Below are positions 14,819 to 33,054 of a stretch of 64,000 bases of DNA, piece by piece. The stretch comes from Burkholderia mayonis (GTDB taxonomy: Bacteria > Pseudomonadota > Gammaproteobacteria > Burkholderiales > Burkholderiaceae): the NCBI RefSeq assembly GCF_001523745.2, contig NZ_CP013386.1, positions 1,798,001-1,862,000 of the forward strand. Direction: 5' to 3'. Made by a program: the position numbers and the translations under genes. Position 1 is the stretch's first letter. Each line of letters starts with the position of its first letter. The notes below the pieces were generated by a model that was not told where the DNA came from, did not search any database, and saw only the letters and a program-made list of their open reading frames with translations.

Positions 14819-14987
14819 CGGGCGGCCGCGCGAGAGGGGCGGGCGCGCGGGTTCCGGCGGCGTGAGTCGGATGGAATCATGTGGTCTCGGCAGTCGACGT
14901 CCGGCTTGCCAGCCGGTGCGCCATGCGTTGCGCGCCCGGTTCCGTCCCTCGCGGGACCGGGCGTTCGGCGAGCGCGGCTCGCCCCCT

Positions 14988-15165
14988 GCGTCGGCCGGTA
15001 TCCGGGCTGACCGCTTGCCATCCCGCCGCCTTCCCGTCCGTGGCGAGGACAGTGGCGCAATGGCGGAATGCGCGAACGCGGCGTGCGCGTCGCAGGCGGC
15101 GTACCGTTGCGAGGACAGCACAGGCTGCGCGGGCTGGCCGCTTCCTGTTTCCCGTTTGACTGAGC
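14988..15165 (-). promoter_or_regulatory. Cobalamin (AdoCbl) riboswitch upstream of cobE-cobO-cobB
   Basis: Read on the minus strand, the segment has the conserved order of a B12 riboswitch: a GGGAA-type start, CTGTCCTCGCAACGGTA in the core, GCCACTGT, and the 3' element GTCAGCCCGGATACCGGCC. The elements match those of the plus-strand copy 150 bases away. About 170 bases lie between the aptamer and the cobE start, room for an expression platform. Binding of adenosylcobalamin would lower expression of the three genes. Confidence 0.9.
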
Positions 15166-15200
15166 GCGCGATCGCGCGCTCGGGCACCGAACGCGCGCAT

Positions 15201-15206
15201 ACGATA
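15201..15206 (-). promoter_or_regulatory. Candidate extended -10 for the minus riboswitch transcript
   Basis: On the minus strand TATCGT is preceded by TGC, giving an extended -10 pattern, and lies about 35 bases before the riboswitch begins. No good -35 hexamer is present at 17 bases. It is the best candidate in this short divergent gap. Confidence 0.35.
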
Positions 15207-15274
15207 GCACAGCGCCGACCGCGCGAGGGCGGCATGCGGAGGGCGCGCCGCGCCCGCGCCGCCTTTTGTCCGCC

Positions 15275-15303
15275 TTGACGCGCTGCGCCCGCGCGCCTAC
15301 ACT
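15275..15303 (+). promoter_or_regulatory. Sigma-70-type promoter for the plus riboswitch/cobalt uptake unit
   Basis: TTGACG (15275-15280) and TACACT (15298-15303) are separated by exactly 17 bases. Transcription would begin near 15310, just before the riboswitch on this strand. The spacing and hexamers are close to consensus and the position is right. Confidence 0.7.
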
Positions 15304-15315
15304 CGCTCGCGTTTT

Positions 15316-15552
15316 GGTGCTCGCGTGCGGGTTCTGTCGCACGCAGTTAAACGGGAAGCAGGGAGCGTCGCCGCGTCGCGGTCCGCCAACCTGCGCTGCC
15401 CCCGCAACGGTAAGCGAATGCATCGCGCGAGCGATGCGGCGCCGGCTTCTCCGCATGCCCGCCGGCATGCGCGGCCAACCACTGGACGCATTGTGTCCGG
15501 GAAGGTGAAGCGGCGTTTTCGTCAGCCCGGATACCGGCCGAGACGCAGGGTC
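15316..15552 (+). promoter_or_regulatory. Cobalamin (AdoCbl) riboswitch upstream of the Co/Ni permease-cobW-cobN unit
   Basis: This segment has all the hallmark blocks in order: TTAAACGGGAAGCAGGGAGC, CGCTGCCCCCGCAACGGTAA, CCACTGGACGC, GGGAAGGTGAAGCGG, and the 3' block GTCAGCCCGGATACCGGCCG. It follows a good promoter and precedes the cobalt permease by about 290 bases. It should shut down cobalt uptake and insertion genes when adenosylcobalamin is plentiful. Confidence 0.95.
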
Positions 15553-15843
15553 TGTTCGCCGATCGAGCGCATGCGCCGCGCGACAGCGAGCGGTCCCGGG
15601 GTTCAGCGCCGCGGGGATGCGGCGTGTCGTCCACGGCTTCATCGCGTCGCTTGCCGCCGCTGTGTGGCTCGTCCCCGTCCGATGCCGCGTGCTTCGGCCC
15701 GCGTCGCGCGCATGTCGCGAGCGCGCGCCGGCGCGCCGCACGCATGGGCGAACGACGGGCCGGGCGGGCAGCATGCGCATCGCGCGCGATGTCGCGCGTG
15801 TTGGCATTCTTCTTGTTTGTCGACCGTTCGCAAAGGGAGCGCC
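15553..15843 (+). other. Long untranslated leader between riboswitch and permease
   Basis: These 291 bases follow the riboswitch and contain no credible gene; the reading frame of the permease is open through them but the composition is not protein-like. The leader should contain the expression platform. I did not identify a clear terminator hairpin. Confidence 0.5.
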
Positions 15844-16905
15844 ATGCTCAAATCGTTTCTCCGCCTCTTCAACGACAGTCCCGCCGAGCTGCGCGGGAAG
15901 ATCGTCGGCATCTACGCGCTGCTGATCGCATTCAACGTCGGCGCATGGATCTGGGCGTTCGCCGCGTTCCACGGCCAGCCGGTGCTGCTCGGCACCGCGC
16001 TGCTCGCGTACACGTTCGGGCTGCGCCACGCGGTCGACGCCGACCACATCGCCGCGATCGACAACGTCACGCGCAAGCTGATGCACGAGCGCAAGAATCC
16101 GCTCGGCGCGGGGCTCTTCTTCTCGCTCGGCCATTCGACGGTCGTGATCCTGATGACGGTCGCGGTCGCGCTGACGGCGGCGACGCTCGCCGCGCGCTTC
16201 GAAGGGATGAAGGCGTGGGGCGGCGTGATCGGCACGAGCGTGTCGGCGTTCTTCCTGCTCGTGCTCGCGTTCGCGAACCTGCTGATCCTGATCTCCGTAT
16301 ACCGGACGTTCCGCGCGGTGCGGCGCGGCGAGCCGCTCGTCGAGCAGGATCTCGACATCCTGCTCAACCAGCGCGGTTTCTTCGCGCGGATCTTCCGGCC
16401 GCTGTTCGCGATCGTGTCGCGCAGCTGGCATCTGTATCCGATCGGCTTTCTGTTCGGCCTGGGCTTCGACACCGCGACCGAGATCGCGCTGTTCGGCATC
16501 TCGGCCACGCAGGCGCACGGCGGCCTGTCGTTCTGGTCCGTGATGGCGCTGCCGATCCTCTTCACCGCGGGGATGACGCTCGTCGACACGACGGACGGCA
16601 TCATGATGATGGGCGCGTACCGCTGGGCGTTCGTGCGGCCGATCCGCAAGATCTACTACAACATGACGATCACGTTCGTGTCGGTGCTCGTCGCCGTCGT
16701 GATCGGCGGAATCGAGGCGCTCGCGCTGATCGGCGACAAGCTCGCGCTCAAGGGCGGCCTGTGGGACTTCGCCGCGATGGCGGCCGAGCATTTCGGCATC
16801 CTCGGCTATTTCGTGATCGGCCTGTTCGTCGCGAGCTGGGCCGTGTCGGCGCTCATCTACCGGATCAAGCGCTACGACGACATCGACGTGACGATCTCCG
16901 CGTGA
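15844..16905 (+). CDS. Nickel/cobalt permease (NiCoT family)
   Basis: A 353-residue inner-membrane permease with about eight hydrophobic segments. The diagnostic metal-binding signature of the second membrane segment is present (RHAVDADHIAAIDN, about residue 60), as is LGHSTVV shortly after, both typical of HoxN/NixA/NhlF proteins. The family moves Ni2+ or Co2+; the upstream B12 riboswitch and downstream cobW and cobN argue for cobalt supply to corrin synthesis. The ATG at 15844 follows AAAGGGAGCGCC, while the long upstream frame lacks protein character. cobW follows after 57 bp. Confidence 0.93.
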   Translation: MLKSFLRLFNDSPAELRGKIVGIYALLIAFNVGAWIWAFAAFHGQPVLLGTALLAYTFGLRHAVDADHIAAIDNVTRKLMHERKNPLGAGLFFSLGHSTVVILMTVAVALTAATLAARFEGMKAWGGVIGTSVSAFFLLVLAFANLLILISVYRTFRAVRRGEPLVEQDLDILLNQRGFFARIFRPLFAIVSRSWHLYPIGFLFGLGFDTATEIALFGISATQAHGGLSFWSVMALPILFTAGMTLVDTTDGIMMMGAYRWAFVRPIRKIYYNMTITFVSVLVAVVIGGIEALALIGDKLALKGGLWDFAAMAAEHFGILGYFVIGLFVASWAVSALIYRIKRYDDIDVTISA

Positions 16906-16962: not shown

Positions 16963-18036
16963 ATGCAAATGCGCAAAATCCCCGTGACGATCGTCACGGG
17001 CTTCCTCGGCAGCGGCAAGACGACGCTCTTGCGCCACATCATCCAGAACGCGGGCGGCCGCCGGATCGTCGTGATCGTCAACGAGTTCGGCGAGCTCGGC
17101 ATCGACGGCGAGATCCTCAAGGGCTGCGGGATCGGCTGCGACGACGCGGGCCGCGAAGCCGACGGCCAGCTCTACGAGCTGGCGAACGGGTGCCTGTGCT
17201 GCACCGTGCAGGAAGCGTTCTATCCGGTGATGGAAAAGCTCGTCGAGCGCCGCGCGGACATCGACCACGTGCTGATCGAGACGTCCGGCCTCGCGCTGCC
17301 GAAGCCGCTCGTGCAGGCGTTCAACTGGCCGTCGATCAAGAACAGCTTCACGGTCGATGCGGTGCTGACCGTCGTCGACGGGCCGGCCACGGCGCTCGGC
17401 CAGTTCGCCGAGAATCCGGTCGCCGTCGACGCGCAGCGCCGCGCCGACCCGAACCTCGATCACGAATCGCCGCTGCACGAGCTGTTCGCCGATCAGCTTG
17501 CGTCCGCCGACCTCGTGATCGTCAACAAGACCGATCTGCTCGACGACGGCGCGCTCGCGCGCGTCGAGACGGCGATCCGCGAAGAGATTCCGCAGCAGGT
17601 GAAGATCGTGCGCGCGCGGCGCGGCGAGCTCGATCTCGCGGCGCTGCTCGGCCTGAACGCCGCATCCGAGGAGACGATCCACCTGCGCCACGATCATCAC
17701 GGCTCGACCGACGATCCCGATCATCACCACGACGAGTTCGATTCGGTCGTCGTCGAGGCGCGCGTGGGCTCGCGCGAGGCCGCGCTCGACGCGCTCGCGG
17801 CGCTCGTCGAGGCGCACGCGATCTATCGCGTGAAGGGCTTCGCCGCACTGCCGGACGCGCCGATGCGGCTCGTCGTCCAAGGCGTCGGGCGGCGCTTCGA
17901 CAGCTATTTCGACCGCCGCTGGCGCGACGGCGAGGCGGACGTGAGCCGCTTCGTGCTGATCGGCGAGGCCCTCGACGCGGCCGTGCTGCAGCGCGCGTTC
18001 GACGCGGCGCTCGCGGCCCGCGCGCAGGCCGCGTGA
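16963..18036 (+). CDS. cobW: CobW-type GTPase metallochaperone
   Basis: A 357-residue G3E GTPase expected to deliver cobalt to the cobaltochelatase. It shows the P-loop TGFLGSGKTTLL near residue 14, the metal-binding CxCC (GCLCC, about residue 76), the guanine-specificity motif NKTD (about residue 188), and a His/Asp-rich stretch around residues 242-258 that probably binds metal. Its place between a cobalt permease and cobN under a B12 riboswitch supports CobW rather than a zinc paralogue. cobN starts 24 bp downstream. Confidence 0.94.
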   Translation: MQMRKIPVTIVTGFLGSGKTTLLRHIIQNAGGRRIVVIVNEFGELGIDGEILKGCGIGCDDAGREADGQLYELANGCLCCTVQEAFYPVMEKLVERRADIDHVLIETSGLALPKPLVQAFNWPSIKNSFTVDAVLTVVDGPATALGQFAENPVAVDAQRRADPNLDHESPLHELFADQLASADLVIVNKTDLLDDGALARVETAIREEIPQQVKIVRARRGELDLAALLGLNAASEETIHLRHDHHGSTDDPDHHHDEFDSVVVEARVGSREAALDALAALVEAHAIYRVKGFAALPDAPMRLVVQGVGRRFDSYFDRRWRDGEADVSRFVLIGEALDAAVLQRAFDAALAARAQAA

Positions 18037-18060: not shown

Positions 18061-21000
18061 ATGCATCTGTTGCGCACGACGCCGGGCGGCTTCGTCGACG
18101 ATACGGCGGGCGTCGTCCGCATCGACCAGCGTCCGGCCGACATCGTCATCCTGAGCTCGGCCGACACGACGCTGTCGCTGCTCGCGAGCGTCGTGCCGAC
18201 GTTGGGCGACGGCTTTCCGAGCGTGCGGCTCGCGAACGTGACGTTCCTGCGGCAGCCGGCGTCGGTCGATTTCTACGTCGACGACGTGCTGCGCCACGCG
18301 CGCGTCGTCGTGATCGACCATCTCGGCGGCGAGGCGTACTGGCCGTACGGGATCGAGCAGGCGATCGCGCTCGCGGATCGCGCGGGCCAAAGGCTCGCGA
18401 TGTTCTCGGGCGACTTGCAGGAAGATCCGAACCTGATCGCGAAGAGCACCGTCGCGCCCGGGCTGTGCCGGCTTTGGTGGCGCTATCTGCGCGAGGGCGG
18501 GCCCGCGAACGCCGAAGGGCTGCTGCGCAGCATCGCGCATCACGCGCTCGGCGTCGGCGACGAGCCCGAGCCGCCGCGTCCGCTGCCCGCCGCCGCGCTC
18601 TATCATCCGGCGCACGCGAGCCCGAGTCTCGACGACTGGCGCGCGCGCTGGCGCGAGAACGCGAGCGTCGTCGCGATCCTGTTCTACAAGGCGCACTGGC
18701 AGGCCGCGAACACCGCGGTGTTCGACGCGCTCGCCGACGCGCTCGCGCGCGTCGGGCTCAATGCGCTGCCGATCGCGGTGACGTCGCTCAAGGACGCGAT
18801 GAGCCGCGCGGTCGTCGACACGCTGTGCGCCGATGCGAATGTCGCCCTCGTGCTGAACACGACCGCGTTCGCCGCGGGCGCGCCGGGCGCTTGCGAGCCG
18901 GAGGTGCTCGCGGGCGACGCGCCGGTGCTGCAGGTGATTCTGTCGGGCGGCAACCGCGACGCCTGGCTCGCCGATCCGCACGGCCTCAACGCGCGCGACA
19001 TCGCGATGCACGTCGCGCTGCCGGAAGTCGACGGCCGGATCGTCACGCGCGCGGTGAGCTTCAAGGGGCTCGCGTACCGCTGCCCGCACACCGAGGTCGA
19101 CGTCGTCCGCTACCAGCCGGACGACGAGCGGATCGCGTTCGTCGCCGAGCTGAGCCGCCGCTGGTGCCGGCTGCGCACGCTCGACAATGCCGAGAAGCGC
19201 GTCGCGCTCGTGCTCGCGAACTATCCGGCGAGCGAAGGGCGGATCGGCAACGGCGTCGGGCTCGATACGCCGGCGTCGGCGCTCGCGGTGCTCGCGATGC
19301 TGCGCGACGCGGGCTATCGCGTGGCCGAGCTGCCCGAAGACGGCGACGCGCTGCTCGCGAGGATCAGCGAAGGCGTGACGAACGATCCGTCGACGCGCGC
19401 GCTGCGTCCGGCGTTCCAGAGCTATCCGCTCGACGATTATCTGCGCCGCTTCGCGCGATTGCCGGACGCGGTGCGCAGCGCGCTGAACGAGCGCTGGGGG
19501 CCGCCCGAAGCGGACCCGACGCTGCGGCAGCGGCGCTTTACGATCGCCGGCTGGCGTGCGGGCCAGGTGTTCGTCGGCGTGCAGCCGTCGCGCTCGCGCG
19601 GCGGCGACGACTACGCGAACTATCACGACGCCGATCTCGTGCCGCCGCACGCGTATCTCGCGTTCTACTTCTGGCTGCGCGACGCATTCGGCATCGACGC
19701 GATCGTCCACGTCGGCAAGCACGGCAATCTCGAATGGCTGCCGGGCAAGAGCGTCGCGCTGTCGGACGCGTGCTGGCCGGACCTGATCCTCGGGCCGATG
19801 CCGCACCTGTACCCGTTCATCGTCAACGATCCGGGCGAGGGCAGCCAGGCGAAGCGGCGCGCACAGGCGGTGATCGTCGACCACCTGATGCCGCCCCTCA
19901 CGCGCGCCGAAAACTACGGGCCGCTGCAGGACCTCGAGCGGCAGGTCGACGAATACTACGACGCGCTGATGGTCGACGCGCGGCGCGCGAAGGTGCTGCG
20001 CGAGACGATCCTCGCGACGATCGTCGAGCACCGGCTGCACGAGGAGCTGAGCATCGCGCGGCCCGACGGCCGCGACGCCGAGGATGCGCTGCTCACGCGC
20101 GTCGACGCGTGGCTCTGCGAGCTGAAGGAGGCGCAGATCCGCGACGGGCTGCACACGTTCGGCAGCTCGCCGCGCGGCCGGCAGCGGCGCGACACGCTCG
20201 TCGCGCTCGCGCGCTTTCCGGCGGGCGACGGACGCGGCGGGCACGCGGGGCTGATCGGCGCGCTCGCGCGCGATCTCGCGCTCGGCGACGATTTCGATCC
20301 GCTCGCGTCCGACTGGGCCGCGCCGTGGACGGGGCCGCGGCCCGACGCGCTCTGCGCGGTCAGCGACGCGCCGTGGCGGCATGCGGGCGACACGCGCGAG
20401 CGGCTCGAGCTGCTCGCGGGCCGATTGATCGAGCAGGTGTGCGGGGAAGGCGGCGACGGCGCATTGCCCGATCACGCGGCGGAGCGCCCGACGGCGGCAG
20501 ACGGCGAAGCGCCGACAAGCGTCGAATCGCGCGCCGAGCCGTGGCCGTCCGCACACGCGGCACATGACGGTTTCACCGGAAGCCTCGCGTGTGCCGCGTG
20601 TGTCCCACGCGACACGGCACGCGAAGCGGAGACGCCAAAGGATGCGTCGCGGCCGAACGCATCGGACTGCGTCGATCCTGCATCCGTCGCCGCGCACTGG
20701 CCGCACGCACACGCGGTGCTCGAGCGCATCGCGCGCGACGTGCTGCCGCGCCTCGACGCGTGCGGCGACGAAGAGCTGCGCCAATTGCGGCGCGGCCTCG
20801 AAGGCCGCTTCGTGCCGCCGGGGCCGAGCGGCTCGCCGTCGCGCGGCCGGCCGGATGTGCTGCCGACGGGCCGCAACTTCTATTCGGTCGACACGCGCGC
20901 GGTGCCGACGCAGGCCGCGTGGACGATCGGCCTCAAATCGGCGCAGCAGTTGATCGAGCGCCATCTGCAGGAGCACGGCGACTACCCGCGCGCGGTCGGC

Positions 21001-22077
21001 CTGTCGGTCTGGGGGACGGCGACGATGCGCACGGGCGGCGACGACGTCGCGCAAGCGCTCGCGCTCCTCGGCGTGCGGCCGAAATGGGCGCCCGGCAGCC
21101 ACCGCGTGACCGATTTCGAGATCCTGCCGATCGAGATCTTCGACCGGCCGCGGATCGACGTGACGCTGCGCGTGTCGGGCTTCTTCCGCGACGCGTTCGC
21201 GAACGTGATGCATCTGTTCGACGCGGCAGTGCAGGCGGTCGCCGAGCTCGACGAGCCCGAGCACCTGAATCCCGTCCGCGCGCGCGTGCGGCGCGAGACG
21301 GACGCACTCGTCGCGCGCGGCGTGCCCGCCGGCGAAGCGCGCCGGCGCGCGGGCTGGCGCGTGTTCGGCGCACGGCCGGGCGGCTACGGCGCGGGGCTGC
21401 AGGCGCTGATCGACGGCCGCCACTGGCAGACCGACGCCGATCTCGCGGATGCGTACCGGACCTGGGGCGGCTACGCGTACGCGCAGAACAGCGCGGGCGA
21501 AGCCGCGCACGACGCGTTCGGCGCGCGCCTCGCGACGATCAACGCCGTCGTGCAGAACCAGGACAACCGCGAGCACGACATCCTCGATTCGAACGACTAC
21601 TACCAGTTCCACGGCGGCATGGCGGCCGCGGTCCGCCATGCGTCGGGCCGGCAGCCGAGTCTTTATCACGGCGACCACAGCAACCCGGCCGCGCCACGGA
21701 TGAACACGCTGCGCGAGGAGATCGCGCGCGTGATCCGCTCGCGGGTCGTCAATCCGAAATGGATCGACGGCGTGAAGCGGCACGGCTACAAGGGGGCGGC
21801 GGAGATCGCGGCGACCGTCGACTATCTGTACGGCTACGACGCGACCGCGCGCGTGATCGCCGATCACCAATATGCGCTCGTCGCCGACGCGTACCTGCAC
21901 GACTCCGACACCCGCGCGTTCCTCGAGCGGCACAATCCGCACGCGCTGCACGGGATCTGCGAGCGGCTCGTCGAGGCGATGCAGCGCGGCTTGTGGCAGG
22001 AGCCGGGCGCGCACCGCGACGCGATCGAAGGCTATCTGCTCGCGAGCGAACAGCGTCTCGAAGGGGCGCGGCGATGA
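18061..22077 (+). CDS. cobN: Cobaltochelatase large subunit
   Basis: The 1338-residue subunit binds hydrogenobyrinic acid a,c-diamide and inserts cobalt with the help of an AAA+/VWA motor. Family landmarks include HVGKHGNLEWLPGK, DDYANYHDADLVPPH and GGMAAAVRHASG in the expected order. An insert of about 85 residues of low complexity (about residues 793-880, rich in Ala, Asp, Thr and Pro) separates two conserved blocks. The next genes encode ChlI/ChlD-like partners rather than CobS/CobT. The ribosome site is weak, and translation may depend on readthrough from cobW. Confidence 0.95.
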   Translation: MHLLRTTPGGFVDDTAGVVRIDQRPADIVILSSADTTLSLLASVVPTLGDGFPSVRLANVTFLRQPASVDFYVDDVLRHARVVVIDHLGGEAYWPYGIEQAIALADRAGQRLAMFSGDLQEDPNLIAKSTVAPGLCRLWWRYLREGGPANAEGLLRSIAHHALGVGDEPEPPRPLPAAALYHPAHASPSLDDWRARWRENASVVAILFYKAHWQAANTAVFDALADALARVGLNALPIAVTSLKDAMSRAVVDTLCADANVALVLNTTAFAAGAPGACEPEVLAGDAPVLQVILSGGNRDAWLADPHGLNARDIAMHVALPEVDGRIVTRAVSFKGLAYRCPHTEVDVVRYQPDDERIAFVAELSRRWCRLRTLDNAEKRVALVLANYPASEGRIGNGVGLDTPASALAVLAMLRDAGYRVAELPEDGDALLARISEGVTNDPSTRALRPAFQSYPLDDYLRRFARLPDAVRSALNERWGPPEADPTLRQRRFTIAGWRAGQVFVGVQPSRSRGGDDYANYHDADLVPPHAYLAFYFWLRDAFGIDAIVHVGKHGNLEWLPGKSVALSDACWPDLILGPMPHLYPFIVNDPGEGSQAKRRAQAVIVDHLMPPLTRAENYGPLQDLERQVDEYYDALMVDARRAKVLRETILATIVEHRLHEELSIARPDGRDAEDALLTRVDAWLCELKEAQIRDGLHTFGSSPRGRQRRDTLVALARFPAGDGRGGHAGLIGALARDLALGDDFDPLASDWAAPWTGPRPDALCAVSDAPWRHAGDTRERLELLAGRLIEQVCGEGGDGALPDHAAERPTAADGEAPTSVESRAEPWPSAHAAHDGFTGSLACAACVPRDTAREAETPKDASRPNASDCVDPASVAAHWPHAHAVLERIARDVLPRLDACGDEELRQLRRGLEGRFVPPGPSGSPSRGRPDVLPTGRNFYSVDTRAVPTQAAWTIGLKSAQQLIERHLQEHGDYPRAVGLSVWGTATMRTGGDDVAQALALLGVRPKWAPGSHRVTDFEILPIEIFDRPRIDVTLRVSGFFRDAFANVMHLFDAAVQAVAELDEPEHLNPVRARVRRETDALVARGVPAGEARRRAGWRVFGARPGGYGAGLQALIDGRHWQTDADLADAYRTWGGYAYAQNSAGEAAHDAFGARLATINAVVQNQDNREHDILDSNDYYQFHGGMAAAVRHASGRQPSLYHGDHSNPAAPRMNTLREEIARVIRSRVVNPKWIDGVKRHGYKGAAEIAATVDYLYGYDATARVIADHQYALVADAYLHDSDTRAFLERHNPHALHGICERLVEAMQRGLWQEPGAHRDAIEGYLLASEQRLEGARR

Positions 22078-22146: not shown

Positions 22147-23373
22147 GTGAACAAAACGAACGAAGCGCACACGCCGAGCGGCGCCGCATCCGACGCCCGC
22201 GCGCTGCCGGCCGCGTATCCATTTGCCGCGCTGATCGGCCAGGACGCACTGCAACGCGCGCTGCTGCTCGTTGCCGTCGATCCGGGCCTGGGCGGCGTGC
22301 TCGTCAGCGGCCCGCGCGGCACCGCGAAGTCGACTGCCGCGCGCGCGCTCGCCGAACTGCTGCCCGAAGGGCGCTTCGTCACGCTGCCGCTGTCGGCGAC
22401 CGACGAGCAGGTGACGGGCTCGCTCGATCTCGCGAGCGCGCTCGCCGACAACGCCGTGCGCTTCTCGCCCGGCCTCATCGCGCGCGCGCATCTCGGCGTG
22501 CTGTACGTCGACGAGATCAACCTGCTGCCGGACGCGCTCGTCGACGCGCTGCTCGACGCGGCCGCAAGCGGCGTCAACACCGTCGAGCGCGACGGCATCT
22601 CGCACAGCCACGCGGCGCGCTTCGCGCTCGTCGGCACGATGAATCCGGAGGAGGGCGAGCTGCGGCCGCAACTGCTCGACCGCTTCGGATTGATGGTCGA
22701 GCTCGCGAACTGCTACGACGCGGCGACGCGGCAACGGATCGTCAAGGCGCGGCTCGCGTTCGATCTCGACCCGCATGCGTTCCGCGCGCAGTATCGCGAC
22801 GCGCAGGCGGCGCTCGTCGCGCAAATTCGCACGGCGCGCGCCGCGCTGCCGGCGCTCGCGTTCGACGACGCCGCACACGCGCGCGTCTCCGCGCTTTGCA
22901 TCGGCGCGCAAGTCGACGGCTTGCGCGGCGACCTCGTGATGCTGCGCGCGGCGCGGGCGCTGGCGGCGCTCGAAGGGGCGACGATCGTCGATGCGGCGCA
23001 CGTCGAGCGCGTCGCCGCCGACGCGCTGCGCCATCGGCGCACGCGGCCCGATGCCGAGGCGGGCGCGCAGGCCGGGCGGCGCGAGTCCGCGCACGCCGGC
23101 GAAAACGACGGCGCGATCGATTCGGCGCGGCTCGACGCCGCGGCTGACGCTCACGCCGACGACATGCGGCGCGCAAGCGGGGCCGGTTCGCCGCGCGAGC
23201 GATCGCCCGCGGCATCCGGCACGGCGCGGCACGCAGCCGGCAATCGCGACGCGGCGCACGAAAGCGGCCGCCCCCCGCAGACTGACGACAGCGACTGGGG
23301 CTATCTGCCGCCCGAGCCTGCTGGCATGACGCCCGTCAAACGCGTGATTCCGCTGCCGCTAAAAAAACGCTGA
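22147..23373 (+). CDS. chlI: Chelatase AAA+ ATPase, small subunit (ChlI/BchI-like)
   Basis: A 408-residue AAA+ ATPase that would power cobalt insertion by CobN. Walker A is GPRGTAKSTAAR (about residue 55), Walker B is VLYVDEINLL (about residue 118), and a sensor region GTMNPEEGELRPQLLDRFG follows, all as in BchI/ChlI. After about residue 300 the sequence becomes a charged, proline-containing linker and ends LPLKKR. The start is GTG preceded by GGAAG; ATGs upstream are in another frame. The last codons CTA AAA AAA CGC TGA form a slippery site, so part of the translation probably continues into the following VWA domain. Confidence 0.93.
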   Translation: MNKTNEAHTPSGAASDARALPAAYPFAALIGQDALQRALLLVAVDPGLGGVLVSGPRGTAKSTAARALAELLPEGRFVTLPLSATDEQVTGSLDLASALADNAVRFSPGLIARAHLGVLYVDEINLLPDALVDALLDAAASGVNTVERDGISHSHAARFALVGTMNPEEGELRPQLLDRFGLMVELANCYDAATRQRIVKARLAFDLDPHAFRAQYRDAQAALVAQIRTARAALPALAFDDAAHARVSALCIGAQVDGLRGDLVMLRAARALAALEGATIVDAAHVERVAADALRHRRTRPDAEAGAQAGRRESAHAGENDGAIDSARLDAAADAHADDMRRASGAGSPRERSPAASGTARHAAGNRDAAHESGRPPQTDDSDWGYLPPEPAGMTPVKRVIPLPLKKR

Positions 23374-23436
23374 GCCATCGGACGGATGCCGCCGCTGCCG
23401 CCGCGAACGCGCCGGACAGCGGACTTCGATGGCTCG
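23361..23436 (+). promoter_or_regulatory. Candidate -1 programmed frameshift signal (slippery A7 plus stem-loop)
   Basis: Seven A residues (23361-23367) are phased as A-AAA-AAA in the chlI frame. Four bases later begins a perfect 9-bp inverted repeat, GAGCCATCG (23372-23380) with CGATGGCTC (23427-23435), extendable at both ends by G-U and A-U pairs to about 12 bp. An inner 6-bp stem (CCGCTG 23392-23397 with CAGCGG 23417-23422) sits in its loop. The chlI stop codon is at 23371-23373, at the base of the stem. A -1 slip continues as ACG-CTG-AGC with no stop into the VWA domain. This is the standard layout of a bacterial -1 frameshift cassette. Confidence 0.8.
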
Positions 23437-24068
23437 AACGAGGCATGCGCGCGGACGACGCGAGCGACGCTCGGGGCCGACCCGGTACGCGCGTCGCTTG
23501 GCGAGCGACGCTCGCGGCGAAGCGCGGCGGCGCACTGCGCGCCGATCATCTGCGCTACCGGCCGCAGACCGGTGCGCCCGGCGCGCTGCATTGCTTCGTG
23601 CTCGACTGCTCGGCGTCGATGCTGACGGCCGGGCGGCTCGCACGCGCGAAGGGGCTTGTCGTCGCGCGCTTCGATCGCATCGCGCGCGAGCGCGCCGATG
23701 CGGCGCTCGTCTGCTTCGGCGGCGGCTCGGCCGACGTGCGCTTCGGTCCGGCCGTGCCGCGCTGGTGGAACGAGCGCTGGCTCGCGCCCGTCGGCGGAGG
23801 CGGCGGCACGCCGCTCGCGCATGGAATCGACGCCGCGGCGCGGCTGCTCGCGCGCGCGGCGCGCCGGCGCCCGCAGCAGCAGCGCTGGGTATGGCTGCTG
23901 TCGGACGGGCGCACGGCCGAAGCGCCCGCGCGGCCGGCGCTCGCCGACCGGATCGTCGTCGTCGACTTCGACGACGCGGCCGTGAGGCTCGGTCGCTGCG
24001 AGCGGCTCGCGCACGCGTGGGGCGCGACGCTCGTCACGCCCGACGAGCTCGCGTGCGGGGTCGCGTGA
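23367..24068 (+). CDS. chlD: VWA domain of chelatase medium subunit (ChlD/CobT-like), probably made by frameshifting
   Basis: This reading frame encodes a von Willebrand A domain with the metal-ion-dependent adhesion motif DCSASM and the later threonine loop GGGGGTPLA, as in the C-terminus of BchD/ChlD. The first ATG is 23445, but homologous-looking sequence (SGLRWLERGM) lies upstream of it and the frame is open back to the slip site at 23367. That ATG also lacks a ribosome site, and the 9-bp stem overlaps the region before it. The likely product is a fusion of 407 chlI residues plus 233 residues here, 640 in all, a normal ChlD length. Independent translation from 23445 (207 aa) is the alternative. 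Confidence 0.8.
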   Translation, partial: TLSHRTDAAAAAANAPDSGLRWLERGMRADDASDARGRPGTRVAWRATLAAKRGGALRADHLRYRPQTGAPGALHCFVLDCSASMLTAGRLARAKGLVVARFDRIARERADAALVCFGGGSADVRFGPAVPRWWNERWLAPVGGGGGTPLAHGIDAAARLLARAARRRPQQQRWVWLLSDGRTAEAPARPALADRIVVVDFDDAAVRLGRCERLAHAWGATLVTPDELACGVA

Positions 24069-28160: not shown

Positions 28161-29975
28161 TCAGCGATACCAGCGCGGTGTGTATACCCATTCGCGCGCG
28201 CCGTCGCGAACGACGCGGCGTGTCGTCGACGAGCCGACGATCACCATCGTGCGCATGTCGACCTGCTGCGCGAACAGCGCGCCGAGCGTCGTCGTGACGA
28301 GCGCAGCGCCGGGGCGGCCGATGTCGCGGCCGAGCACGACGATCGTGTCCGGCGTGCGGTGCCGGCGCACGACGTCGAGCGCGCGATCGAACTGCACGGG
28401 CCGCGCGCGCGACACCGGGTTGTAGAACGCGAGCGCGAGATCGGCGGCGGCTGCGTGATCGATGCGCTTTTCGATGATCGCCCACGGCTTCAGGTTGTCG
28501 GACAGCGAGATCATGCAGAAGTCGTGGCCGAGCGGCGCGCCCGCTTCGGCGGCCGTCGCGAGCGCGGCCGACACGCCGGGCACGACGTCGAGCTCGACGG
28601 CCGCCCAGCGCGCGTCGTCGGCGCCGTCGAGCGCTTCGAGCACGGCCGCCGCCATCGCGAACACGCCGGGATCGCCCGACGACACGACCGCGACGCGCCG
28701 GCCTTGCGCCGCGAGCTCGAACGCGTGACGCGCGCGCTGCAATTCTTCGCGATTGTCGGAGACGTGCAGCGCTTGGTCCGCGCGGAACGGGCCCGCCATG
28801 TTCACGTAGGTCGCGTAGCCGACAATGTCGGTCGCGCCGGCGAGCGCCGCGCGCGCGGCAGGCGTCATCAGGTCGGCGCGGCCGGGACCGAGGCCGAGCA
28901 CCGTCAGGCGGCCGCGCGTCGCGCCGAGCGTGACGGGATCGACGGGCGAATCGGAAACGGCGATCGCGAGATCGTGCGGCGTCGCCTCCGCGTGCTTCGT
29001 GCCGACGCGCCGCGCGAGCGTGGCGGGGATCGCGGCGTCGAGCACGCCGGACGCGTCATGTGCGTCGGTATCGACGAAACGCAGCGGCACGCGCAGCGCG
29101 CGCGCCGCTTCGGTCAGCGCGTGATCGGCGATGCGACGCGCCGGCGCGACGACGGCCGCGAGCGCGAGCGGCGCGAGATCGTGCGCGGCGAGCCGGGCGG
29201 CGATGCGTGCGGCGAGCGGCGGCAGGTTCGGTGTGGCGCCGCTTCCGCTTGCGTTCGCGGCGTCATTCGAGTTCCGGCTCGCGATTGCATCGTGATCCGA
29301 AGCATTCCGCGCGCGATCGTCGACGCGATCTTCATCGCCGAACGCAATGACGACGCTTCGCGGATGAATCAGTAATGCGTGCGCATCGCCGCGCGACGCG
29401 TAAGGCGTGACGCGGATCGCGCGCGCCGCGTGCGCGTCGCGCGGCAGCGCGACGTCGTCGAGCCACCGTGCATTGCCTTCGATCCGCGTGCTTTCGCCCG
29501 CAAGCAGATCGGACACGAAGCGCTTGCCCGCGTCGAGATCGGCGAGCGCGTAGCCCTCGGGCGGATTCAGCACGCATGCGCCGAAGCGCAGCTCGCCGCT
29601 CGTCGTGATCGCGGCCGTGACGCCGAGCGCATCGGCGATTTCGCGCGCGAGCACGTTCGCGCCCGCGAGCCCGCCCAACAGCGGCACGACCGCGCTGCCG
29701 TCCTCGGCGACCGCGAGCACCGGCGGCTCCGCGCCCTTGTCGGCGAGGCACGGCGCGACGCAACGGATCACGATGCCGGCCGCGAAGAGCGCGACGATCG
29801 GCGCGCCGCGCGCGTACAGCTCGCGCAGATGCGGGCCGAGTTCGGTGAACGAAACATCCGCATCGGCGCGACCCGCGAGCGCATGCACGTGCGCGCCGTC
29901 GTAGCGCGCCTGGATCCGGCGCGCGGTTGCGAGCGCGCCGGGCCCGAGTATCACGATCGAGGGCGCGGTCGTCAT
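28161..29975 (-). CDS. cobJ: CbiG-CobJ fusion: cobalamin ring-contraction protein/precorrin-3B C17-methyltransferase
   Basis: A 604-residue fusion. The N-terminal part is CbiG-like ([30 protein letters not shown]), followed by a CbiG C-terminal-like region, and the C-terminal third is the SAM-dependent CobJ ([35 protein letters not shown]). CobJ methylates C17 and drives ring contraction. The ATG at 29975 overlaps the cobI stop in an ATGA; a second ATG nine bases upstream is also possible. It is the last gene of the cobG-cobH-cobI-cobJ unit. A linker near residues 230-260 ([12 protein letters not shown]) is of low complexity. Confidence 0.93.
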
Positions 29976-30706
29976 CCTTGCCATTTTTCCCCCGGCACGA
30001 CGAGCAACGAAAAATACGGCGACGCCATCGGATCGACTTCCGCGAGCGGCACGATTCGCTGCGCCTGCATCGTCGCGCGCTCGATGTAGTGCGCGCGGTG
30101 CGCGAGCCCGAGCTCGTCGAGCACGCGGCGCACCTTGTCGAAGTTGCGGCCGAGCTTCATCACGACGGCCGCATCGGCCTTCGCGAGACGCGCGCGCAGC
30201 TCGTCCTCGGGCAGCACGCCGGACAGCACCGAGAGGCTCTGATTCCGGTAGACGAGCGGCACGCCGAGCACCGCCGCGCCGCCCAGCATCGAGCACACGC
30301 CCGGCACGACTTGCGCGTCGTAGCGCGGCGCGAGCCGGTCGTGCAGGTACATGTACGAGCCGTAGAAGAACGGATCGCCTTCGCAGATCACCGCGACGTC
30401 GCGGCCCGCGTCGAGATGTGCGGCGACGTGTTCGGCGGCCGTGTCGTAGAAGTCCGCGATCACGGCTTCGTAGCAGAGCGGCGGCGGCAGCGCTTCGGTC
30501 GTCACCGGGTAGACGAGCGGCATGTGCGTCTGCGCGTCGCTCAGATGCGCTTCGACGATGCTGAACGCGTTGCCTTTCTTGCCCTTCGCGACGAAATACG
30601 CGACGACGGGCGCCGCCTGCAGCACGCGCAGCGCCTTCAGCGTCAGGAGCTCGGGGTCGCCCGGCCCGACGCCGAGCCCGTAGAGGCGGCCGGTCTTGCG
30701 CGTCAT
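29972..30706 (-). CDS. cobI: Precorrin-2 C20-methyltransferase
   Basis: A 244-residue SAM-dependent methyltransferase that adds the C20 methyl group. The tetrapyrrole methylase glycine loop is at the start ([18 protein letters not shown]), with [16 protein letters not shown] and VPGVCSM further on, characteristic of CobI/CbiL. The start at 30706 overlaps the cobH stop as ATGA; the upstream open frame is out-of-frame cobH sequence. Overlaps with both neighbours point to translational coupling. Confidence 0.95.
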
Positions 30707-31329
30707 TCGGCCTCCGAAGCGAGCGCGTTGACGGCGGCGGCGGCCATCGCGCTGCCGCCGCGGCGGCCGGCGATCGCGACGAACGGCACGCCGCGGCTGT
30801 CGGCCGCGAGGAGCGCCTTCGATTCGGCCGCGCCGACGAAGCCGACCGGAAAGCCGAGGATCAGCGCGGGGCGGGGCGCGCCCGCGTCGATCATGTCGAG
30901 CAGATGGAAGAGCGCGGTCGGCGCGTTGCCGATCGCGACGACGCTGCCCGCGAGGTGCGGACGCCACAGCTCGAGCGCCGCCGCCGAGCGCGTATTGCCG
31001 ATCTCGCGCGCGAGCTGCGGCACGTCGGGCTCGCCGAGCGTGCAGAGCACGGGGTTCGCGGCGGGCAGCCGCGCGCGCGTGACGCCTTCGGCGACCATCC
31101 GTGCGTCACAGAGGATCGGCGCGCCGGCTTTCAGCGCCGCGCGGCCCGCCGCGCCCGCGCCCTCGGAAAACCGCAGGTCGCGAACGATGTCGACCATCCC
31201 GCACGCATGGATCACGCGCACAGCGAGTTTTTCGAGGTCGGGCGGCACGTTCGTCAGATCGGCTTCCGCACGGATCGTCGCGAACGATTCGCGGTAGATC
31301 GCGTCGCCGTCGCGAAGGTAGTCAAGCAT
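30703..31329 (-). CDS. cobH: Precorrin-8X methylmutase
   Basis: A 208-residue enzyme that moves the C11 methyl group to C12, giving hydrogenobyrinic acid. It keeps the catalytic histidine segment RVIHACGM (about residue 40) and the family blocks [11 protein letters not shown] and [13 protein letters not shown]. The start at 31329 has AGGA eight bases upstream; an ATG at 31338 has the same frame but no spacing for a ribosome site. It overlaps the end of cobG by 8 bases. Confidence 0.95.
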
Positions 31330-32737: not shown

Positions 32738-32854
32738 CGGCGCTCCGGATCAGGCGTCGCGCGACGGCCCGAGCCGGCCGTTCCGCGCGAATGCGCGCGA
32801 GCGGCGAGCTACGGCATCGGTACACCCCGCCCGATGTTGGCTGGCACGAACGAA

Positions 32855-33040
32855 ACGTCCCGGCAGGTCTCCTGGCTGGCAGGTCGTCATCCGCAGCGGG
32901 CCTTCCCGGCGGCCGCGAGTGGGCGGCGTGGCCAGTGGCGTGGATCGGATGCGGACTCGCTACTCACAGTTGCGGGGGCAGCCGCAGCGGCGCGGCGCGC
33001 CCTGCGTTCCCTCTTGGGCCCCGTGGGGCGCCGGTCGACG
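32855..33040 (-). promoter_or_regulatory. Cobalamin (AdoCbl) riboswitch upstream of cobG-cobH-cobI-cobJ
   Basis: On the minus strand the conserved blocks appear in order: AGAGGGAACGCAGG, GCTGCCCCCGCAACTGTGAG, CCACTGGCCACGCC, GGGAAGGC, and the B12 box AGCCAGGAGACCTGCC. It ends about 120 bases before the cobG start. The B12-box version here is the classical one, unlike the CCCGGATACCGGCC type in the other two copies. Confidence 0.95.
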
Positions 33041-33048
33041 GACGCTGT

Positions 33049-33054
33049 ATTATG
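33049..33054 (-). promoter_or_regulatory. Candidate -10 element for the cobG riboswitch transcript
   Basis: CATAAT on the minus strand lies about 10 bases before the predicted start of the riboswitch RNA, in an otherwise GC-rich gap. No strong -35 is visible. Confidence 0.4.

Follow-up and report, generated by a model that had tools for sequence, protein, structure and literature searches.

Conserved slip site and covarying RNA stems at a Burkholderia chlI-VWA junction probably give two chelatase subunits from one gene

How one gene might supply two chelatase subunits is the question raised by a locus in a 64,000 nt stretch of the Burkholderia mayonis genome (contig NZ_CP013386.1, positions 1,798,001 to 1,862,000; the whole stretch is called the window, and coordinates are counted from its first letter). 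Here an open reading frame (ORF) for a ChlI-like AAA+ subunit ends a few bases after a run of seven A residues, and a VWA domain follows in the -1 frame. An earlier note on this DNA had proposed that the frames are joined by programmed frameshifting. Judged by sequence comparison, ribosomal -1 frameshifting very probably yields both a short ChlI and a long ChlI-VWA subunit from this one gene.

The zero-frame ORF (22147..23373, plus strand, 408 amino acids with an assumed GTG start) matches Pfam Mg_chelatase and AAA_lid_2, TIGR02030, and positions 88-374 of TIGR02442, the NCBIfam model for a putative cobaltochelatase. It is read as CTA AAA AAA CGC TGA at its end, placing the slippery heptamer A AAA AAA (23361..23367, plus strand) in the zero frame and the TGA stop (23371..23373, plus strand) one codon past it. 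The -1 frame (23367..24068, plus strand) is open from ACG at 23367 to the stop at 24066-24068; it codes for a linker with a VWA domain, matching VWA_2 and positions 431-639 of the 641 in TIGR02442. The earlier note had read this junction in the same way, and its length for the fused product, 640 residues, agrees with the predicted one by arithmetic (407 + 233). The A7 run is the only one in the 64 kb on either strand (0.25 expected), which is weak evidence by itself because 22 of 100 shuffles contain at least one. Across the 6.59 Mb genome (two contigs) there is a single copy of the motif AAAAAARNNCTGAGCC and none of a control pattern. The fold of the junction has a z value of -2.37, with 6 of 200 shuffles equally good, and is modest evidence. 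The strong evidence that points to frameshifting is conservation.

The genus was sampled with 65 Burkholderia genomes, one per species. All 62 genomes in which the junction was examined keep the VWA half at -1 and A AAA AAR in frame (60 with A7 and two with A6G), in support of the frameshift interpretation of the earlier note, the products themselves being predicted. Among all counted loci with both halves, 137 of 138 have the VWA half at -1 and, where the first ORF ends, A AAA AAR in frame (95 A7, 42 A6G). These 138 come from 146 loci (L001-L146), in which the window is present twice, as L001 and L005, and so are some other genomes; left out were three weak AAA matches in the genome of the window itself (L002-L004), four loci without a VWA match in the stretch (L059, L063, L091 and L098) and L070, where the VWA match is beyond the distance rule while slip site and stem are present. 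A VWA match was found in 155 genomes of the family, and 84 loci outside the genus were analysed; 83 have the slip site and the -1 relation, 73 of these being new junctions. Collapsing identical stretches and dropping L001 gave 206 distinct junctions from 219 loci; one genus genome (G050), with a partial match at a contig end, is outside this set. In 205 of the 206 the distance from heptamer start to zero-frame stop is 10 nt, and the -1 frame is open through to the VWA motif in every one.

Homopolymers are prone to sequencing error, and a broken gene or an error in the A run would also give two frames; one locus, L227, may be such a case. This explanation is refuted by the same frame relation in 62/62 Burkholderia junctions and beyond, leaving it a practically negligible chance. 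Open frames of 683-699 amino acids around the VWA half in some genomes were considered as natural fusions and rejected, the frame relation being -1 there too.

Downstream of the slip site two stems are conserved. The outer stem pairs 23371..23382 with 23425..23436 (both plus strand; 12 positions including G-U), the core found in relatives being 23374-23382 with 23425-23433. In the window the stem reaches further toward the heptamer, giving the 9-bp perfect repeat 23372-23380 / 23427-23435, four bases past the slip site, that the earlier note had described together with an inner 6-bp stem; both are present. The inner hairpin pairs CCGCTG (23392..23397, plus strand; alignment columns 32-37) with CAGCGG (23417..23422, plus strand; columns 63-68), conserved by alignment. 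A search of each junction found the outer stem in 57 of 58 from Burkholderia, paired at nine of nine positions, in 99 of 109 others, mostly Burkholderiales, and in 36 of 39 mostly from Pseudomonas, against shuffle expectations of 1.5, 4.0 and 2.9. The sole Burkholderia junction without it, L118, has undetermined bases. The Burkholderia junctions examined thus show neither broken slip runs nor, leaving L118 aside, unpaired arms, either of which in relatives the earlier note had named as a reason to drop its proposal.

A first alignment comprised 69 of 91 distinct junctions, from Burkholderia and near genera; the remaining 22 have an inner part that differs (Caballeronia and genera further away) or is unreadable (one, with undetermined bases) and for this reason were not aligned. 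The 9-bp core of the outer stem begins 6 nt past the heptamer, with 99.5% of cells paired and two-sided changes in four of nine pairs, and the inner hairpin, of 6-8 bp, has 96.9% of cells paired and two-sided changes in four of eight. The variable pairs of the stems show 1-13 pair changes on a tree. Taking the two stems jointly with the pseudoknot considered below, 97.1% of cells are paired and 10 of 22 pairs have two-sided changes; none of 500 shuffles was as high on all five measures, and slid versions pair in 31-49%. In a second alignment of 38 rows (36 new junctions of the CGCTGA type, L005 and L011) the outer stem is paired in 97.7% and the inner hairpin in 89.5% of cells. The count of pairs with two-sided changes was matched there by 28 of 500 shuffles and the other four measures by none. 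The downstream RNA structure is hence conserved and covarying, and a stimulatory role is predicted for it. The inverted repeat of the earlier note stands as the outer stem, with the correction that the predicted stimulator is more than one stem, having an inner hairpin that covaries and a pseudoknot that is likely in the genus. A 3-bp internal-loop hairpin in the lowest-energy fold of the window was dropped, with 66.2% of cells paired and no two-sided change. In Pseudomonas loci (L067-L114) the slip site is A AAA AAG, and a compact hairpin of roughly 8-18 bp takes the place of the branched Burkholderia form.

These stems also bear on slippage of RNA polymerase, through which the fusion would come from an altered mRNA and not from the ribosome. 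Transcriptional slippage on A runs is used by other bacterial genes, and seven consecutive A's are available at 23361-23367. It is less likely here because 42 of the 137 loci have just six A's followed by G, a sequence better suited to tandem tRNA slippage, and the conserved stems would have no evident role; polymerase slippage is accordingly very unlikely.

Several observations weigh against frameshifting as the source of two subunits. The two halves of the gene, searched separately and unjoined against TIGR02442, score 373.5 and 70.6 bits, each below the cut-off of 779.45 bits, which is set for whole proteins. Covariation counts are not independent events, because the junctions share descent. 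In Acidovorax sp. SUPP3334 (L060:5497-7050) the gene is a natural in-frame ChlI-VWA fusion without a slip site, and no second strong ChlI was found in this genome, whose completeness is not told; with a fused gene and no second ChlI, some organisms may not require the short form. This lineage may manage without it or may have lost the function; the fusion makes the need for the short subunit testable. In Cupriavidus basilensis OR16 (L059, after 7020) slip site and stem are kept and the -1 frame stops after 65 codons, with a further ORF behind it, and in L227 the A6G run and the stem are kept with a stop in the chlI frame ahead of them. Finally, some start codon lies in frame 25 or more codons ahead of the VWA motif in 165 of the 206 junctions.

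The last count favours two separate proteins, ChlI ending at the TGA and a VWA protein initiated independently, through coupling or internally. A candidate start is ATG 23445, which opens a 207 amino acid ORF in the VWA frame. Downstream initiation was seen alongside frameshifting in some experiments, as described in the available part of Antonov et al. 2013 (PMC3711429). Against it, ATG 23445 is without a normally spaced Shine-Dalgarno sequence, because GAGG sits just 1 nt upstream, and the close relatives L008 and L009 have ATA in its place; the earlier note had likewise found no ribosome site for this first ATG of the frame. A Shine-Dalgarno-like core at normal spacing precedes a start at least 25 codons ahead of the motif in just 6/206 junctions, and 13/206 have no in-frame ATG, GTG or TTG from slip site to VWA motif. 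The distance between these two varies from 43 to 91 codons across the 206 junctions, yet the -1 frame stays open. Separate proteins are very unlikely, a shade more so than polymerase slippage.

Ribosomal frameshifting agrees with what the comparison finds conserved, namely a slip site next to a zero-frame stop, a VWA half that stays at -1 in an open frame, and two stems that covary. On this model the majority of ribosomes would read CGC and terminate at TGA, giving the short form. A fraction would be held by the outer stem a few bases downstream, in Burkholderia likely locked by a pseudoknot, and in these both lysine tRNAs could re-pair one base back, with translation then running through the VWA domain. 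The efficiency of the slip would set the ratio of the two subunits.

The likely pseudoknot, a candidate stimulator of the H type with 4-5 bp, would pair ATGCC (23386..23390, plus strand), in the internal loop between the two stems, with GGCAT (23442..23446, plus strand), which overlaps the first ATG of the VWA frame (23445); in the alignment these are columns 26-30 and 88-92. In the 69 rows 93.0% of its cells are paired, against 27-54% for slid controls. Column pair 27-91 is CG in 55 rows, UA in nine, UG in three and GC in two, never unpaired in the 69, with six pair changes on the FastTree tree, and none of 500 shuffles reached either the pseudoknot's 16 cells with changes on both sides or its covariation score. 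These figures speak against a structure of two stems alone, in which GCC and GGC codons would account for the match between the columns. Several others speak for it. GGC and GCC at those columns are in-frame codons, column pair 26-92 is unpaired in 21 of 69 rows, and the pseudoknot by itself has two pairs with two-sided change, a count that 359 of 500 shuffles equal. RNAalifold pairs columns 88-90 with 9-11 instead, a pairing that was not adopted as it shows no two-sided change.

The pseudoknot was proposed from the 69 rows and then tested on junctions fetched later, with at least four of five pairs as the criterion. Of the 67 junctions, 21 show it at the predicted gap, all of the CGCTGA type (21 of 35, against 0 of 32 others), yet 18 of the 67 pair at gap 11. 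The CGCTGA-type subset (36 of 72 rows, 35 with the outer stem) was split off after the sequences were seen; in these 35 rows, other gaps gave 0-2 matches (gaps 0-4 and 6), six (gap 7) and 17 (gap 11). Within the genus at least four of five pairs form in 54 of 59 at gap 5, but gaps 11 and 13 also give 27 of 59; at gap 8, where the window's own clade pairs fully, there is a match in 16 of 59. In the second alignment 72-82% of the pseudoknot cells are paired. Stimulation by the two stems alone therefore comes close to an even chance without reaching it. On the same comparisons the pseudoknot is likely in Burkholderia, and it is unproven in other genera, where support is weaker or partial and periodic background matches appear at gap 11. 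That Burkholderia and near genera share a dedicated element, in which the slip site acts with an outer stem at constant spacing, an inner hairpin as an insertion and a pseudoknot to set the ratio of the two subunits, is a serious possibility, judged slightly below even. It would be a cellular element in a B12 gene, its pseudoknot joining the internal loop to a strand 5 to 8 nt beyond the outer stem. The forms would be specific to lineages: a compact hairpin in Pseudomonas, and in Caballeronia outer stems that are longer and lack this pseudoknot.

The surroundings point to cobalt as the metal. Upstream of the junction are cobN for the large cobaltochelatase subunit (18061..22077, plus strand; TIGR02257, 1577 bits against a cut-off of 822.05), cobW (16963..18036, plus strand; TIGR02475, 478.6 bits, cut-off 332.1) and a cobalamin riboswitch (15298..15556, plus strand; RF00174, 63.4 bits), and we infer from these three that the enzyme is for cobalt; both subunits are predicted to be made in this bacterium. 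CobN was matched in 63 of the 65 genus genomes, 62 times over the cut-off, and the VWA half also in 63, both being absent from the same two genomes, G016 and G057 (99% and 82% complete). At the sensitivity of the profile searches used, the genome of the window has no CobT family match (PF06213), no CobS over the cut-off (TIGR01650), no second strong ChlI and one chelatase I/D locus. It does not fit CobNST with CobS and CobT; the presence of cobN with neither of these and a single I/D locus would fit one gene supplying both subunits.

A CobT-like gene, found in 19 of the 65 genus genomes, was rejected as an alternative subunit, since the genome of the window lacks it and G016, without a CobN match, carries it. 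The G016 protein is at G016:C1:358913-359545 (L149), the other carriers being 18 genus genomes, and its role is probably not B12 synthesis because of the missing CobN match. In G025, G063 and G024 the CobN match is split in two pieces with separate open frames, either broken genes or assembly errors. Three cobalamin riboswitches are found in the window, at 14976-15207 (minus strand), 15298-15556 (plus strand) and 32845-33052 (minus strand); the first two lie back to back upstream of the cobN cluster. Between riboswitch and cobW, the ORF 15325-16905 (plus strand) has a RHAVDADHIAAIDN stretch, which we take to be the motif of NiCoT nickel/cobalt transporters. On the minus strand an ORF at 28161-30296 matches CobJ over the cut-off and CbiG models under their cut-offs, and adjoins CobI (29972-30964, minus strand).

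Among known systems, the dnaX frameshift uses an A_AAA_AAR site with a downstream stem and yields the shorter form. The site and stem are alike here, whereas the shift would yield the longer form, and inspection by eye showed no Shine-Dalgarno-like stimulator directly upstream. The dnaX slip site is A_AAA_AAG (Atkins et al. 2016, PMC5009743).

The closest system is the frameshifted chlD (fs-chlD), which the available text of Kuznetsov et al. 2022 (PMC9227772) gives as the source of both subunits of aerobic cobalt chelatase. It is placed there with cobN (stage 8), with Pseudomonas aeruginosa as the example and Burkholderia not named in the main text. The earlier note mentions frameshifted chlD in cobalamin producers that have cobN without cobS/cobT, and the genome of the window likewise has neither of the latter. 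The features of fs-chlD found here are an AAA+ half followed by a VWA half at -1, a conserved A_AAA_AAR, downstream RNA structure with a predicted stimulatory role, and cobN in a genome where the searches showed no cobS/cobT and no separate gene for the small subunit.

The available parts of Antonov et al. 2013 (PMC3711429) place 23 magnesium-chelatase frameshift genes in one -1 cluster, from Pseudomonas, Burkholderia, Delftia, Herpetosiphon, Methanocaldococcus and Methanococcus, and state that such genes are annotated as two adjacent genes. Three cassettes gave 63%, 40% and 10% in E. coli reporters for 11, 9 and 7 A's. The gene pair, the -1 shift, the A_AAA_AAA site and the genus are those of the present locus; unlike here, those parts mention neither a particular Burkholderia species nor a conserved stem for the gene, and the word pseudoknot is found in the reference list alone. 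The chlI-VWA frameshift is thus a rediscovery, its kind and genus having been reported in 2013, and the suggestion in the earlier note that the cassette had not been described does not hold, Burkholderia being one of the six genera and one of the three tested cassettes having seven A's.

The present analysis adds the RNA structure, the argument from start codons and a measure of how widely the junction is conserved. No covarying two-stem or pseudoknot element for the chlI-VWA gene was described in the literature searched, as far as it was available, and the covarying two-stem, possibly pseudoknotted element is new to that extent, though Antonov 2020 (Mol Biol Evol) may describe it. The larger sampling supports one gene likely encoding two subunits of a B12 enzyme by frameshifting in at least 62 of 65 Burkholderia genomes, and the covarying element is a precise RNA structure open to testing. 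For the magnesium chelatase gene, Atkins et al. 2016 (PMC5009743), in the part available, report A_AAA_AAR under purifying selection and strong stem potential, with the stem of Pseudomonas protegens given and the stem sequence not strongly conserved; in Burkholderia and near genera, by comparison, the present alignment shows two covarying stems.
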